From Parafannyhessea umbonata (GTDB lineage Bacteria; Actinomycetota; Coriobacteriia; Coriobacteriales; Atopobiaceae), in assembly GCF_900105025.1 (NCBI RefSeq), contig NZ_LT629759.1, forward strand, positions 496,001 to 560,000: 64,000 nucleotides of DNA, in the 5' to 3' direction. Positions within the stretch are counted from its first letter, which is position 1; each line of letters opens with the position of its first letter. Under the pieces are notes generated by a model. The model ran no database searches, was not told the DNA's origin, and saw nothing but the letters and a program-made list of their open reading frames with translations. This document shows positions 27,601 to 34,497 of the stretch, one piece after another. The position numbers and the translations under genes were made by a program.

Positions 27601-28517
27601 CGGGCTATCCGCGCAAGCAGCTCATGGAGTTCGTGGACAAGAACAACCCCGCGAACATCATCGACGCCGCGGCGAAGCGTCAGAAGGACAAGGCGAACGG
27701 ACAGGTGTCCATGTTCGACATGTTTGCCGACGTCGCTGGCTCAGGCTTCACGGACGACGTACCAGACCCAGACCCCGATGACGAGTGGGATCGCCATCTC
27801 AAGCTGCAGCAGGAGCACGACGTCCTCGGACTCTACGTATCGGACCATCCCCTGCGGCCGTTCGAGTACGCGTTGTCGAAGGCTCGCGACTGCACCATAT
27901 CCGAGGCGATGGCCTCAGAGGACTACGTCGACCCGGTGACGGGCGCGACCTCCCAGCGCTTCAAGGTGGAGGACGGCAAGGTCATCAAGCTCGCCGGCAT
28001 GGTCCCCGTGGGAGGCGTCGCCAAGAAGGTCACCAAGAAGGGTGACCAGATGGCCATCGTCACCCTCGAGGACATGGAAGGCGAGATTTCACTTGTCGTC
28101 TTCCCGAAGACCTACCAGGAGTGCGCGTCCGCCCTCGAGGGAGAGGTCGACCCCGACACCGGGGAGCGCATCGGCGACGTCTTCATCCAGGCAACCGGCA
28201 AGATCGAGCACGGCGATAGGGGAGACCAGCTCATCTGCTCGAAGATCGAGGCGCTCGAGCTGAACGAGAGGACGAACAGGCCGAAGGTGTTCGAGGTCTA
28301 CATCCCCTCAAGGATGCTCTCGATGGACAGGATGGAGACGCTCCAGTCCATCTTCGACCGCTACAACGGTCTCGATCACATTGAGCTCATGGTCGAGAGC
28401 TCGTGCGGCGATATGATGAGAATGGAGCTGCCGACGAAGGTGGACGCGAAGAACATGGTTCTCCTCGCGGAAGTGAAGGACTTCGTCGGCCGCGACGGCC
28501 ACGTGCAGATCGCCTAG
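24606..28517 (+). CDS. dnaE: DNA polymerase III alpha subunit
   Basis: A 1303-residue replicative polymerase DnaE. The PHP domain has HLHNHSDFSILDG and ITDHG, so its metal site looks intact. The palm has MPDIDMDFDDE with two catalytic Asp and KMDFLGLRTL with the third. The beta-binding and helix-hairpin-helix region is followed by an OB domain (MVPVGGVAKKV, TLEDMEGEISLVVFP). About 60 residues (60-122), acidic and Trp-rich, are inserted in the PHP domain between the metal loop and IKPIFGCEAYF, where most DnaE have a short turn. GGAGG five bases upstream fixes the ATG at 24606. Its stop overlaps the stop of the opposing Abi_2 gene. Confidence 0.95.
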   Translation: MAFVHLHNHSDFSILDGATPIPDMVKRAVDFGMPAVAITDHGYMFGIPELDLECRKYNDGQKNMKQWRHDVECFKKEWELEEPAADPDEADYFDRVHDQWASDVRAWEESGHDVKAVEANRPRLKIKPIFGCEAYFIPGDHVERGHREKRYHLILLAKNSTGYHNLLKCMSEAAGHEMMYYGKPHTVFSMLEKYHEGLICQSACVQGIIQQCVLDGQFDEARDWARKFHALFGDDFYMEIQDHGLTFRNGWDDRKLDEYLVKLAHEEGIKVVCTNDFHYLTREDASTQDILSCIGKATTLDDPNRMRMEGTEFYMKSEEEMRGLFSWCPEAADTTLEIADKCDYELDWSSMYLPEYPGLRPGETAEERFREECEKGLARRYGENWRDLTIGDWNVKDRFEHEYKIITEKGFANYFLIVQDYVQWAKDNGIGVGPGRGSAAGAIVAYAMNITNFDPLENGLMFERFLSPQRSEMPDIDMDFDDEHLQDVLQHVRDVYGEDHVCKVITYSTIKAKQAINDANRVLGFPVFMGQKLSKMLSNDPKLTLPNALHKNEKKPDQYSPDFEEAYNKDPDAHRIIDAALSIEGFMRGEGVHACATLIAPTPVTDHVPTKLDTKGNVTITQYEGHSVADMGLLKMDFLGLRTLTVINKALANIRRRYSKASDIERVPEAVRKCLKDGATCVDIDVDKIDFSDPKIYELLGSGQTAGVFQVESGGMTATIKNMQPNQYKQIVALIALYRPGPLGAGMVDSYIKRMHGEEKISYYDDRLKPILEETYGTMVYQEQVMQISMKMSGFTPGESDSRMRKPVAKKKIKMLTDQVFHWEKTGADETIYDHWMNGAEANGYKRDVAQEIWDNVLEFASYAFNKSHSAGYAILVMQTAWLKAYFPKEYMASVLTSYMGKTDKIVHYVTACNHDGTKVLPPDINKSGKDFTATDEGIVFGFAGIRGVGEGPAEAIMAERAANGPFKDLHDFCERVDSSQANRRVVEALIKAGAFDETGYPRKQLMEFVDKNNPANIIDAAAKRQKDKANGQVSMFDMFADVAGSGFTDDVPDPDPDDEWDRHLKLQQEHDVLGLYVSDHPLRPFEYALSKARDCTISEAMASEDYVDPVTGATSQRFKVEDGKVIKLAGMVPVGGVAKKVTKKGDQMAIVTLEDMEGEISLVVFPKTYQECASALEGEVDPDTGERIGDVFIQATGKIEHGDRGDQLICSKIEALELNERTNRPKVFEVYIPSRMLSMDRMETLQSIFDRYNGLDHIELMVESSCGDMMRMELPTKVDAKNMVLLAEVKDFVGRDGHVQIA

Positions 28518-29479
28518 ATGCCCGCGATTCCCGTCCGTTCGAGCTCGCGTGCGATGGCGGGGCTTGCCTGCGAGTACTCGGTCACGAGCGACTCGATGCC
28601 GCCTTGCAGGTGTGCAAGGTCTCCGGTTTCGAGGAAGTGGGACATCATGGAGACGAAGGCGGCAAAGTCCGCCTCGTCTTCCAGCCCGAAGCGTCCATCA
28701 TACAGGCGCTCCCCATGAGCGCAGACGTTGCGAACGTCGACGATGGCCTCGAGGTCGCGGGCGACGCGCCGTGGGGTGAGCGGCCTCTGGGGCGGAGACA
28801 CGCGCTTCTCGCCCAGGCGCTCCGCCGCGGCGGGGCCTTCGTAGCGGCAAGAGCTGAGCTCCGCGAGGTTGTCGCAGACCGTGAGTTGCTCTTCGCGTCG
28901 TAGGAGCGCGAAGAGGTACTTGAGGTTCCCAAACGTGAGCTCGTCGACGAGGACCCACAGAGGCACGGTGTCGTGGTTGTCCTGGAAGTGGGCTACGCGC
29001 ACGTCGCGGCGATCGCCTCGCGGATCGCGTTCGCGCGTGCGGGCATGGTGGGCGAGCGTGTCGATCATCCAGCGAAGGTCCCCCTCGAAGGCGTCCTCGC
29101 CGCGCAGGTAGGCGCGGCGGCAGGTGTAGCTGGACTCGTCGAGGTATGCCTCCGGCCGCGGGTGGCGCTCGCAGAACGCGTAGCTTATGAGGGAGCGCAG
29201 CGTCGCCTCGACGAGCATGAGGTGGCGGAACGTGAGCGCGCGGAGGCTGCGGTCGAAGCGGAAGAGGGCGTACACGTCCGAGAAAGACGTGCCCTCCAGA
29301 TAGCGATCATCCTTGGCGGCTCGGGTGGCGCCTTGGTCCAGGAACGGACGCTTGTAGCCGTTCACGACCGCGTAGTATCCCTCGCGCAGGAGGATGCGCG
29401 GCGTCTGCGCATCGCAGCGCAGGCCGCGTGCCGCGAGGAGCTCGACCTGCTCAGCTATGGTGAGGAAGCGCTTCTCCAC
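28514..29479 (-). CDS. Abi_2 family protein with HEPN-type Rx4H motif
   Basis: A protein of about 321 residues matching the Abi_2 (AbiD/AbiF) abortive infection family: FLTIAEQVELLAARGL, then YYAVVNGYKRPFL, VYALFRFDRSLRALTF, VEATLRSLISYAF and LWVLVDELTFGNL. Near residue 250 the stretch RNVCAHGERLYD gives the RN-x3-H core seen in HEPN ribonucleases, which suggests an RNA-cleaving toxin acting in phage defence. I chose GTG at 29479 because GGAGG lies 6 bases before it and the family start follows directly; upstream in-frame codons to 29683 run into the superoxide reductase promoter. No antitoxin partner is adjacent. The gene converges on dnaE with the two stop codons sharing bases. Confidence 0.8.
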   Translation of the reverse strand: MEKRFLTIAEQVELLAARGLRCDAQTPRILLREGYYAVVNGYKRPFLDQGATRAAKDDRYLEGTSFSDVYALFRFDRSLRALTFRHLMLVEATLRSLISYAFCERHPRPEAYLDESSYTCRRAYLRGEDAFEGDLRWMIDTLAHHARTRERDPRGDRRDVRVAHFQDNHDTVPLWVLVDELTFGNLKYLFALLRREEQLTVCDNLAELSSCRYEGPAAAERLGEKRVSPPQRPLTPRRVARDLEAIVDVRNVCAHGERLYDGRFGLEDEADFAAFVSMMSHFLETGDLAHLQGGIESLVTEYSQASPAIARELERTGIAGI

Positions 29480-29669
29480 GTTGGCCTCCGCCTTGGGTGT
29501 CCGGCCGCGTGTCGCGGCCACGAGCCGACTGTACCACGATGGCGGGGCATTTGGGACTTTCGCTACGGAGATGGTTATTCTGCCACCGTATGGGGCACAA
29601 TAGGTGAAAGGCCGCGCGACGCGCGGCCGGGCATGGTACACGTCATGGTTGACCCGCAAGGAGGACTGT

Positions 29670-30050
29670 ATGGCAGAGCTCACGTTCTATCGTTGCAACA
29701 AGTGCGGTAACTTGGTCATGGTGGTCGACAGGGGCGCCTGCGTGCCCACGTGCTGCGGCGAGCCCATGGAGAAGCTGGTTGCCGGATCCGTCGACGCGGC
29801 GGCCGAGAAGCACGTTCCCTTCATCGAGCGCGACGACAAGCACATGGTCGTGAAGGTCGGCGAGGTCGCGCACCCCATGACCGAGGAGCACTATATCGAG
29901 TGGATCGCAGTCGCGGCCGAGGGAAAGACCATCATCAAGTACCTGAAGCCCGGCGAGGAGCCCACGAAGACCTTCTGCAAGAAGTTCGCGGACCATGGCA
30001 CGGTCTACGCGTACTGCAACCTGCATGGCCTGTGGAAGGCAGAGTTCTAG
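29670..30050 (+). CDS. dfx: Desulfoferrodoxin (superoxide reductase)
   Basis: A 126-residue two-centre superoxide reductase, which reduces superoxide to peroxide without releasing oxygen, as anaerobes need. Centre I (FeCys4) uses Cys9, Cys12, Cys28 and Cys29, the exact Desulfovibrio spacing. Centre II has its ligands in EKHVPFIE, HPMTEEHYIEW and CNLHGLWK, with the Cys near residue 117. SD AAGGAGG precedes the ATG by 5 bases. Rubredoxin or another electron donor is not next to it. Confidence 0.95.
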   Translation: MAELTFYRCNKCGNLVMVVDRGACVPTCCGEPMEKLVAGSVDAAAEKHVPFIERDDKHMVVKVGEVAHPMTEEHYIEWIAVAAEGKTIIKYLKPGEEPTKTFCKKFADHGTVYAYCNLHGLWKAEF

Positions 30051-30151: not shown

Positions 30152-32065
30152 ATGAGGATTGGCATCGCACAGATAGATACGCGCGCGGGCGACCTGGAGG
30201 CAACGGCCACGCGGATGGTAGCGCTTTCCAGCGCTGCCGCAGAGCAGGGGGCTGACCTTCTCGTCTTTCCCATGGCAGCTCTGACGGGGCCTCTGCCCGT
30301 GCGCGAGAGCGAGCAGGACGACTTCCTTGTGGACGTGATGGACGTGCTCGTGCGCCTTTCCGAGGAGGTGTCGTGCCCGTGCATCGTGCCTGTTGTCGGA
30401 GCGCTCGACGGCCAGCCGGCGCCTGAGGCGGTGCTGGTGGGGGACGAGAAGATCCTGCCCCTGAAGATGCAGGCATATGCCCAGTCCGAGGACGCCGGCC
30501 TAACGGACGACGAGGATGCGCCGGCGCCCGACCTGCCTGAGTTCGAGTTTGGCGGCATGCGCCTGGGCATCGCCTTCACCTACGAGGACCTAGACGATTA
30601 CGACGACTTTGACCTCGACGTGGGCGCCATCCTCTACATCGCGGGCTATGGGTACGCCGCGGATGACGTAGACTCCGTGCTTGGCAGCGACCTTGCCGAG
30701 AATCGTTACGTTGCGGACGCACGAACCACGGGCGCCTGGATCGTGGGCGTGGGGTCCGTTGGCGGCTACGGGACGTCCGTGTACTCTGGGTCGAGCTTCG
30801 TGCTCTCGCCGCAAGGCGAGCTTGTGGCGTCGCTCCCTTCCTGCGAGGAGGGCCTCGTGGTGGCCGAGGTAGGGGGCTCGTCCGCAGACGACGGTGACGA
30901 GGTCCTGCCCGAGGTCTACAACCGCCCGCTCTACCTGTGGCAGACGCTCGTGCTGGGGCTGAGGGACTATCTCCATAAGATTGAGCAGAGAAGCGCCGTG
31001 CTCGTGCTGGACGGCAGCGTGGGCTCCATGGTGGTCGCCGCACTTGCCACTGATGCGCTGGGGCCCACGAACGTGCACGCAATCGTGGACGTGCCGGGCG
31101 ACGTCAGCCGCGAGGCGTGCTGCCAGCGTCTGGCGCGCAACCTCAGGATCGACGTGCGAGATGCGGGCGACATGCGCGCGGCGGCCTTTGTCACGAGGTC
31201 GGAGGACGCGTTGCTCCGCCGTGGCATCGTGGACGCCTACCTTGCTGCGTGGGCGGCGGAGGTCGGCGGCGTGGTCCTTTCCGGCGCGGACAAGACCGCC
31301 CTCGCATTGGGTGAGAAGCGCCTGGCCCTGGAGGCCGACGCGCTGAAGCCCGTTGGGGATGTCTACCGCTCGGACGTGCTCGAGCTCATGCGCATGAGGA
31401 ACACGATCAGCCCGGTGTTTCCGTCGACGAGGCTTGCGGCGGATGAGGCGCCCGAGGTGGGACTCGACCACGCATCGCTTTCGGACGAGGTGTGGTGCGC
31501 CGAGGTAGACCAGGTGCTCTCCGACCACATCGAGTATGGCAGGAGCATGACGGAGGTCGCCGCGGACCTGCGTGACAACGAGCTGGTCGAGGCGGTGCTC
31601 GCTCGGCTGGACGAGAGCGAGCCGTGGCGCGTGGGACGAGGGCTCTACCTCATGGTGTCCACGGTGACACTCTTTGACGCACGAAGGCCCTTGGGGCTCG
31701 CGTGGCACAACCGCATCCGCGCGGACCGTGAGGCGGCCTCGATGCTCGACCGCGTTACGCGGCGCGTTGGCGCGGGCATCGGCCTTTCGGACCTGCGCGG
31801 CGTTTCAGACCTGCGAGGTGGCTCTTCCTCCGGAAAGGACGCGAGGCGGGAGCCCGTTGCCGAGGAGAGGGGCGATGCTGCCGCACCGCACGGCGATGCG
31901 AGGCAGGTGAAGGACGCACTCTCGTTCTTGAGAGACTTCTCGTACGGCGGCGGGTTCAGGCCGAAGGGCTTTGGCGAGGCGCACAATGCCGGTCAGGATG
32001 GTCCCACGAACGGGTTCGAGGATTCGCGCGGCCAGACGTGGCCCAACCCATTTTCCGAGAACTAG
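30152..32065 (+). CDS. Degenerate NAD synthetase-like two-domain protein
   Basis: A 637-residue protein with the layout of glutamine-dependent NAD synthetase: N-terminal nitrilase-like domain (1 to about 255) and C-terminal synthetase-like domain (about 270-570), then a polar tail. Both active sites look lost. The nitrilase Glu that follows FP is Met41 (VFPMAALTG) and the nucleophile Cys position reads Thr143 (GIAFTYEDL). The PP-loop SGGxDS is DGSVGS at residues 287-292. Still, VVAALATDALGPTNVHAIV, LKPVGDVYRSDVLELMRM and other fold-bearing segments are kept and the frame is intact over 1.9 kb, so selection preserves it. It probably has a non-catalytic or altered role. True NadE must be encoded elsewhere if NAD is made. 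Confidence 0.75.
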   Translation: MRIGIAQIDTRAGDLEATATRMVALSSAAAEQGADLLVFPMAALTGPLPVRESEQDDFLVDVMDVLVRLSEEVSCPCIVPVVGALDGQPAPEAVLVGDEKILPLKMQAYAQSEDAGLTDDEDAPAPDLPEFEFGGMRLGIAFTYEDLDDYDDFDLDVGAILYIAGYGYAADDVDSVLGSDLAENRYVADARTTGAWIVGVGSVGGYGTSVYSGSSFVLSPQGELVASLPSCEEGLVVAEVGGSSADDGDEVLPEVYNRPLYLWQTLVLGLRDYLHKIEQRSAVLVLDGSVGSMVVAALATDALGPTNVHAIVDVPGDVSREACCQRLARNLRIDVRDAGDMRAAAFVTRSEDALLRRGIVDAYLAAWAAEVGGVVLSGADKTALALGEKRLALEADALKPVGDVYRSDVLELMRMRNTISPVFPSTRLAADEAPEVGLDHASLSDEVWCAEVDQVLSDHIEYGRSMTEVAADLRDNELVEAVLARLDESEPWRVGRGLYLMVSTVTLFDARRPLGLAWHNRIRADREAASMLDRVTRRVGAGIGLSDLRGVSDLRGGSSSGKDARREPVAEERGDAAAPHGDARQVKDALSFLRDFSYGGGFRPKGFGEAHNAGQDGPTNGFEDSRGQTWPNPFSEN

Positions 32066-32096: not shown

Positions 32097-32108
32097 GAAC
32101 GAACGTTC
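32097..32108. promoter_or_regulatory. LexA (SOS) box before ruvC
   Basis: GAAC-GAAC-GTTC fits the full core GAAC-RNRY-GTTY of the Gram-positive LexA operator; only the outer C and G are replaced by A and T. It ends 29 bases before the ruvC GTG. LexA control of ruv genes is established in several bacteria. Confidence 0.7.
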
Positions 32109-32137: not shown

Positions 32138-32791
32138 GTGATAATACTTGGCATAGACCCAGGTCTTGCGCATACGGGGTGGGGCGTGGTCGAGACACGC
32201 GGATCCCTTTGTCGTGCCCGCGCCTACGGCTGCGTCACAACAATGGCCTCCGAACCCATCGACCAGCGGCTTGGAAGGATATTCGACGATCTCACGGAGG
32301 TCATCGGTCGCTACCATCCCTCGCAACTCTCAATCGAGAGGATCTTCTTCGGGGAGAACACGCGCTCCGCCATCGCCACGGCCCACGCTCGCGGCGCCGC
32401 GATCGTGGCATGCTCCAATGCCGGGCTTGCGGTGGGGGAGTTCACCCCCATGCAGATCAAGCAAGCCGTCGTGGGCACTGGCTCTGCGGACAAGCGGCAA
32501 GTCATCTATATGGTGCGCAACATCCTGGGCCTTGACCACGATCCGAAGCCAGACCATGCCGCAGATGCGCTTGCGGCCGCCATCTGCTACGCGAACCTCA
32601 AGCGCACGAGGAACATCGCGCGTGCCGTCGCGACGGACCAACTGAGGGAGCAGGAGAGGGCGCAGCGCGAGGCAGACGCTGAGGCGGCACGTCAGATCAC
32701 TGCGGCAGCGACTGCCGCGAACATAGCACGCGCTCAGGGCAAGGGCGACCCGCTCTTCTCCACGCGGGCGAGCAGGAGGAGCAGCAGATGA
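32138..32791 (+). CDS. ruvC: Holliday junction resolvase RuvC
   Basis: A 217-residue RuvC, somewhat long owing to an Ala/Arg-rich tail after residue 175. The catalytic acids are visible in GIDPGLAHTGWG (Asp), SIERIFFGEN (Glu) and DHAADALAAAIC (two Asp). It cuts four-way junctions left by RuvAB migration. The start is GTG with TAAGGCGG upstream. Its TGA overlaps the ruvA ATG, so ruvC-ruvA-ruvB form one operon behind the SOS-type box. Confidence 0.95.
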   Translation: MIILGIDPGLAHTGWGVVETRGSLCRARAYGCVTTMASEPIDQRLGRIFDDLTEVIGRYHPSQLSIERIFFGENTRSAIATAHARGAAIVACSNAGLAVGEFTPMQIKQAVVGTGSADKRQVIYMVRNILGLDHDPKPDHAADALAAAICYANLKRTRNIARAVATDQLREQERAQREADAEAARQITAAATAANIARAQGKGDPLFSTRASRRSSR

Positions 32792-33420
32792 TAGTAAGGC
32801 TAACGGGTACCCTCGTAGAGGTCCTGCCGACTCATGTCGTGCTCGACGTCAACGGGGTCGGATACGAACTCGGTGTCTCGGCGAACACGGCGGCGTCGCT
32901 TCCCTCCGTGGGAGAGGCGGGTGTCACGCTTCTCACGAGGCTCATCGTGCGCGAGGATGCCATGGAGCTGTATGGATTCTCGACGCGCGAGGAGCGGGCG
33001 CTCTTCGACCGCCTCGTCGCGATTTCGGGGGTCGGCCCGAAGCTCGCGCTGTCCGTTCTCTCGACGTTCAGGCCACAGGAGCTGGCCACGGTTGTCGCAA
33101 CGGAGGACGTAGGCCGCATGAGCCAGGTGTCGGGAGTCGGAAAGAAGAAGGCACAGAGGCTGCTCGTGGAGCTCGAGGGCGTGTTCCAGAAAGATGCCGA
33201 GCTCAGGAGCCTTGTCGGCCTTTCGCAACCGTCGCGCGGAGACGTTGTCGCTTCCGTCCCCGCACTTCCGGTTGAGGCGGAGGCGACCGATGCGCTCCTC
33301 TCCATGGGCTTTACCTCGCAGGAGGTAGAACTTGCGCTGCAAGGTCACGAGGAAGCGGGGGCGATGACCATACAGCAGGTGCTGTCGTACGCGCTCAAGC
33401 GGCTGGGAAGCGGGGCATAA
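32788..33420 (+). CDS. ruvA: Holliday junction helicase subunit RuvA
   Basis: RuvA of 210 residues: N-terminal OB domain (MIVRLTGTLVEVLPTHVVLDVNGVGYEL), tandem HhH motifs (FDRLVAISGVGPKLALSVLS and VSGVGKKKAQRLLVELEG), and a C-terminal RuvB-binding domain (ATDALLSMGFTSQEVELAL). It binds the junction and loads RuvB. It overlaps ruvC by four bases. Confidence 0.96.
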   Translation: MIVRLTGTLVEVLPTHVVLDVNGVGYELGVSANTAASLPSVGEAGVTLLTRLIVREDAMELYGFSTREERALFDRLVAISGVGPKLALSVLSTFRPQELATVVATEDVGRMSQVSGVGKKKAQRLLVELEGVFQKDAELRSLVGLSQPSRGDVVASVPALPVEAEATDALLSMGFTSQEVELALQGHEEAGAMTIQQVLSYALKRLGSGA

Positions 33421-33423
33421 GCC

Positions 33424-34497
33424 ATGTGGGAAGCTGGTAGGGACGACCTGTTCGAGGATGCAGGAACGGCGGGGATGCGCGGCATGCGCGAGTCGGGCCC
33501 TAGGTCCGTCACGGCGGAGCTCACCGCGGACGACCTCGACGTAGATCGCACGCTAAGGCCAAAGTCGCTGGACGACTACTGCGGACAGGAGCGCGTGAGG
33601 GAGAACCTCCGCGTCCTGATTCAAGCGGCAAAGGAAAGAAACGAGCCCCTCGACCACGTCATCTTCTCGGGTCCTCCGGGACTGGGCAAGACGACGCTTG
33701 CCGGCGTCGTGGCGAACGAGATGGGGGCCAAGCTCCACACGACGTCAGGACCCGCGATCGAGAGGACCGGTGACCTTGCGGCCATCCTCACGAACCTCGA
33801 GGAGGGCGACATCCTCTTCGTGGATGAGATACACCGCCTGAACCACCAGGTGGAGGAGGTGCTCTATCCCGCGATGGAGGACTTCTTCCTGGACATCGTG
33901 ATAGGCAAGGGTCCTGCCGCAAGATCCATCAGGCTGGACGTGCCACGCTTCACGCTCATAGGCGCGACCACGAGGACTGGTCTTCTCACCGGCCCGCTGC
34001 GCGACCGCTTTGGCATTAGCTATCGTCTCGACTACTACACGACGGAAGAACTCGCTCGTATCGTCGTGAGGTCGGCGGGCATCCTCGGCGTGGATATAGA
34101 CCAGCAAGGGGCGCTCGAGATTGCGTCGCGCTCTCGCGGCACGCCGCGCCTTGCCAATCGGCTCCTCAAGCGCGTTCGCGACTACGCACAGGTGAAGGCC
34201 GAGGGAAGCATCACGTGGGACATCGCGGCCGAGGCGCTGAAGTTCTTCGAGATTGACGAGATGGGTCTCGACTGGATGGACGTGAAGATCCTCACGGCCC
34301 TCACGAAGACGTTTAGGGGCAGGCCGGTCGGACTCACGACCGTCGCGAGTGCAGTCGGCGAGGATCCTGCGACTCTTGAGGACGTATACGAGCCATACCT
34401 GCTTCAGACTGGTCTCATCATCAGGACCCCCCAAGGCAGACAGGCTACGCAGCTCGCGTTCGAGCACCTTGGAGTCGTTCCGCCTGCCACAAGGTAG
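33424..34497 (+). CDS. ruvB: Holliday junction branch migration ATPase RuvB
   Basis: RuvB of 357 residues, an AAA+ ring motor. It has Walker [14 protein letters not shown], Walker [13 protein letters not shown], sensor [18 protein letters not shown], and a C-terminal winged helix ([27 protein letters not shown]). Length is normal. It starts three bases after ruvA. Confidence 0.97.

Follow-up and report, generated by a model that had tools for sequence, protein, structure and literature searches.

A predicted NAD synthetase pseudoenzyme with a conserved C-terminal tip in Parafannyhessea umbonata and related bacteria

The NadE-derived gene and its neighbourhood

The window, by which the whole stretch of 64,000 nucleotides analysed in this study is meant, harbours a NadE-derived gene upstream of ruvCAB (Table 1). 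The reading frame was open throughout, started with ATG and was preceded at a short distance by the sequence GGAGGG. Pfam matches over the cut-off were obtained for CN_hydrolase (46 bits, residues 2-240) and NAD_synthase (40 bits, residues 263-489). The open frame and these two matches bore out the proposal of a first-pass annotation, made from the sequence alone, that the two-domain layout of NadE is full length and its frame intact. Domains, domain order, length and descent are shared with the PRK13981-type two-domain NAD synthetases (5kha, 3n05 and 4f4h), which a profile of 30 relatives matched over almost the whole of their length. The NCBIfam model PRK13981 aligned with residues 1-491 at 112 bits, but the equivalog cut-off of 479 bits was missed by far. 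The protein also differs from this type in lacking all catalytic and most ligand-binding residues, and in carrying an additional tail with an FSxN tip.

A structure model of all 637 residues was too poor for use (pLDDT 43), and the modelling alignments were shallow. A model without the tail had a mean pLDDT of 68.6, with 5kha, 3n05 and 4f4h again as the best structural matches; it is good for the single-domain folds only, its domain arrangement and pocket being unreliable. Modelling had been proposed earlier as a way to look for a preserved nucleotide pocket; the fold of each domain was supported by the model and the pocket was not.

Table 1. Features of the NadE-derived gene and its surroundings (window coordinates)
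Feature	Position	Strand	Evidence
Desulfoferrodoxin gene, usual upstream neighbour	29670..30050	+	Neighbourhood comparison
NadE-derived protein, doubly inactive, 637 aa	30152..32065	+	ORF, domain matches, column comparison
Nitrilase-like (glutaminase) domain, residues 2-240; Glu/Lys/Cys replaced by M41, Q107, T143	30155..30871	+	Pfam CN_hydrolase, column comparison
NAD synthetase-like domain, residues 263-489; NaAD/ATP-site motifs gone, Lys381 retained	30938..31618	+	Pfam NAD_synthase, column comparison
Former PP-loop SGGxDS, reads DGSVGS, residues 287-292	31010..31027	+	Alignment
Variable linker rich in Gly, Glu, Ala, Asp, about residues 528-581	31733..31894	+	Alignments
Conserved helix-like motif around ALSFLRDFSYGGGF, about residues 582-605	31895..31966	+	Loose pattern; helix in low-confidence model
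Invariant C-terminal tip F-S-E-N, residues 634-637, abuts the stop codon	32051..32062	+	Conservation in relatives
LexA-type palindrome GAACGAACGTTC between the NadE-derived gene and ruvC	32097..32108	.	Motif count in loci
ruvC, ruvA, ruvB, constant downstream neighbours	32138..34497	+	Neighbourhood comparison

A class-wide scan of 296 genomes was performed in order to find relatives of the gene. Every genome of the window's own family (f1) except G056 was matched, as was every genome of a second family, f3, here called Collinsella-like; this label, and that of Eggerthellaceae-like for f2, are based on place and profile only. The absence from G056 is uninformative with regard to gene loss. This genome consists of one contig with 99% completeness, but dnaE, ruvC and ruvB were likewise not found, and the stretch with these genes and the NadE-derived gene is probably missing from the genome sequence.

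In both families the order of the NadE-derived gene, ruvC, ruvA and ruvB was constant, with desulfoferrodoxin in front of them in most cases and missing in some. This constancy might indicate that the NadE-derived protein works with RuvABC in DNA repair, which we regard as highly improbable. A LexA-type box was present before ruvC in 70 of the 71 loci (0.026 expected per locus by chance), but no such box lay within 200 nt upstream of the NadE-derived gene in any of the 71. The sole locus lacking the box before ruvC was that of a third family, f5, where ruvC is elsewhere in the genome and the NadE-derived gene adjoins desulfoferrodoxin. The position of the box between the NadE-derived gene and ruvC suggests that ruvCAB is transcribed from a promoter of its own, in f1 and f3 probably an SOS promoter that would be switched on separately by DNA damage. 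Membership of the NadE-derived gene in an SOS operon was ruled out, as the box sits 3' of the gene, and the ruvCAB neighbourhood alone is no proof of a repair role.

Two further observations were made at this site. An Abi_2 (abortive-infection-like) gene lies between dnaE and desulfoferrodoxin (28514-29683, minus strand) in this genus and in locus L041, and was not seen at that position in the other relatives compared. A strongly diverged version of the NadE-derived gene occupies the same dnaE/ruvC site in genome G240 (L151:6163-9399); its product of 1078 aa (1011-1078 aa) carries a long acidic insertion, was not matched by Pfam and lacks the FSxN tip.

Catalytic centres and selection

In an alignment with nine active relatives from outside the order, the glutaminase residues Glu, Lys and Cys corresponded to M41, Q107 and T143, and the PP-loop SGGxDS corresponded, column by column, to DGSVGS (residues 287-292). 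As the first-pass annotation had read them, the nitrilase Glu is thus Met41, the nucleophile Cys is Thr143 and the PP-loop is DGSVGS; the loss of the Lys was not named there. Intact SGGxDS or Glu-Lys-Cys residues at other positions would have spoken against this reading, and the alignment with active relatives revealed no intact catalytic motif elsewhere in the protein. The order of a nitrilase domain followed by an NAD_synthase domain is that of a PRK13981-type NadE, whereas neither the Glu-Lys-Cys residues nor the SGGxDS loop and NaAD-site motifs of this type are present. Comparison with homologues, which had been suggested as a check, indicated that the losses are fixed: among the 71 distinct sequences examined, both centres were absent from all 70 that belong to f1 and f3 (in one of these, L056, the first 68 residues lie outside the frame).

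The columns that are invariant in active NadE and retained here were mostly Gly, Ala, Leu and Pro of the fold; D453 and R493 were retained as well. Those that are gone comprised SGGxDS, the N354/R358/R360 region, TGN..E, GYSTLYGD and KPPSAEL, motifs which we take to form the ATP and NaAD sites in known NadE structures. In an alignment of 30 sequences, Lys381 of the GNKSE motif was invariant, Gly288 and Ser292 were nearly invariant, and the former PP-loop carried a new family-specific consensus, DG[S/T]xxS. As these three residues of the old ATP site are conserved, the protein might still bind phosphate or, weakly, a nucleotide. They also bear, together with the new loop consensus, on the idea that the old pocket binds a nucleotide or metabolite and that the tail signals its presence. 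Such a ligand sensor is unlikely, as NaAD- and ATP-site residues invariant in active NadE are gone in both families. Of the two roles put forward in the first-pass annotation, that of a scaffold became the likelier; that of a sensor of NAD intermediates was weakened, because most of the nucleotide-binding motifs are gone, even though Lys381, Ser292 and Gly288 persist from the old site.

That a re-made site has given the protein a new catalytic activity was judged very improbable. The fold is retained, and a conserved acidic stretch, EDLDDY, follows the former Cys in many members of the window's family, but it is absent from the second family, and no new invariant polar residue set common to both families was found in either former active site.

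Comparison with the nearest species gave dN/dS ratios of 0.09 (nitrilase domain), 0.11 (synthetase domain) and 0.24 (linker and tail); for the neighbouring genes ruvC and ruvB the ratio was approximately 0.01. The NadE-derived protein is under purifying selection, which is weaker than that on ruvC and ruvB. Decay of the gene was ruled out by this selection, the intact frames and the near-universal retention. With values of about 0.1 in the folded domains, far below 1, and with losses fixed across two families, the earlier suggestion of a pseudoenzyme under selection was supported. The catalytic residues are gone, whereas selection has preserved the fold and the gene, and the comparison of sequences supports a non-catalytic pseudoenzyme.

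The C-terminal tail and its FSxN tip

The first-pass annotation did not mention the tip, the stepwise history of the gene or its ruvCAB neighbourhood. The helix-like motif of the tail (e.g. DLLGYLRDFS) matched a loose pattern in 52 of 55 sequences from the window's own family, and FSxN followed directly by the stop codon was present in 71/71 relatives. F634, S635 and N637 were among only 14 invariant columns of the 30-sequence alignment. Synonymous variation was seen at the Phe, Ser and stop codons, which means that the constraint on the tip acts at the protein level. FSxN was absent from the C-terminus of active relatives outside the order, and two proteins of family f6 ended in FLDN and FLEN, which may be an early or independent form of the tip. 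No other gene in the genome of the window ended in FSxN, and the idea of a widespread tag was ruled out on this ground.

Docking peptides typically appear as an invariant free carboxy-terminus that follows a variable linker, and the SSB tip is an example of such a peptide at the extreme C-terminus of a protein. As in proteins of that kind, the variable linker ends here in a short invariant motif with an aromatic residue; the sequence of the tip, FSxN, and the body that carries it differ from those of SSB. From this pattern we infer that the tip may dock into a partner protein. Alternatively, it could be a degron or an internal plug, and the strongly diverged member in G240, with no tip, is evidence against the docking interpretation.

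History of the gene and its possible role

Forms intermediate between active NadE and the doubly inactive protein were found in other families. The 71st sequence, L073 of f5, has a dead glutaminase site with SGGIDS and GNKSE intact, and four further relatives of this kind (L101-L104, five in all with L073) from f4, f6 and one f2 genus likewise combined a dead glutaminase domain with an intact synthetase motif. In f2, the match was essentially confined to the synthetase domain in 25 of the 26 genomes scanned, and the sequences that were read had an intact SGGxDS or SGGxDS-like loop. These single-domain NadE proteins (L105-L129) are apparently the two-domain form minus its glutaminase domain; as they sit among two-domain relatives, this looks like domain loss. 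Two NAD synthase genes, coding for a single-domain protein and for a two-domain protein whose glutaminase site is dead, occurred together in one f6 genome (G256:C44). When a tree was built from the synthetase domain, the order formed one group (support 100/99), and the doubly dead proteins fell into a single long-branched clade (100/100); the branching order of f2, f4, f5 and f6 was uncertain. The scan of viral contigs for NadE returned one ordinary NadE. It is a two-domain protein in an NAD gene cluster on an IMG/VR contig filed as viral (L156), with neighbours that look, on reading, like nicotinate phosphoribosyltransferase, nicotinamidase, a Nudix regulator and NadD.

The search for a canonical nadE elsewhere in the genome, also suggested earlier, was positive: an intact NadE of the PRK02628 type is encoded at G000:C1:2311074-2313005, with the motifs ELALTGY, KRHIPNY, CEDLW and SGGLDS. 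PRK02628 NadE scored over the cut-off in 131 of the 296 genomes, almost all of them from the two families with the pseudoenzyme, and was present in nearly all f1 and f3 genomes (G287 had no match). Outside these families it exceeded the cut-off in a single f2 genome, G058, and in none of the f4, f5, f6 or other f2 genomes scanned. No match to the old NadE was found in G058.

Co-occurrence of PRK02628 NadE in nearly every genome with the pseudoenzyme might reflect an allosteric partnership, in which the dead NadE binds and tunes the live one. In trypanosomes, catalytically dead paralogues of AdoMetDC and DHS activate the live enzymes (PMC5201418, PMC3663545), and there, as here, a dead copy has been retained in addition to a live enzyme that catalyses the same reaction. 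The live enzyme is, in the present case, from a distant subfamily (the PRK02628 model gave 14 bits on the window protein), and the likeness rests on co-occurrence. Moreover, f5 (G225) is devoid of PRK02628 NadE but already has both the FSxN tip and the dead glutaminase site. An arrangement of the prozyme kind is accordingly unlikely.

The explanation that we favour, as slightly more likely than not, is that a retired NadE has been kept as a non-catalytic scaffold with a flexible tail, the FSxN tip of which would dock into a partner. The gene would be the former resident glutamine-dependent NAD synthetase of the order, passed on by vertical inheritance. The glutaminase site would have been lost first; a PRK02628-type NadE would then have been gained in the ancestor of the two families, and the synthetase site lost after that, an order of events that we infer. 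On the simplest account, arrival of the second NadE would have freed the old one, which G058 then would have dropped, whereas f1 and f3 kept theirs. In the scaffold reading, the folded two-domain body would serve as the platform, and the tail would display the short helix-like motif and the F-S-x-N tip to the partner protein. A more far-reaching version, drawn by analogy with SSB, is possible but doubtful: the order's own NAD synthetase would have been turned stepwise into a non-catalytic hub, with FSxN as a new class of tip for docking into some conserved cellular machine by an SSB-like logic.

The two families consist mostly of gut and oral bacteria. No description of a NadE pseudoenzyme was found in open-access papers, the literature covered by our search. 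Where the annotation of an f1 or f3 genome lists two NAD synthetases, only one should be counted. Stages in the retirement of an essential enzyme survive in living relatives, namely active, half dead, single-domain, and fully dead but kept, and the finding raises a testable question, that of what reads the FSxN tip.
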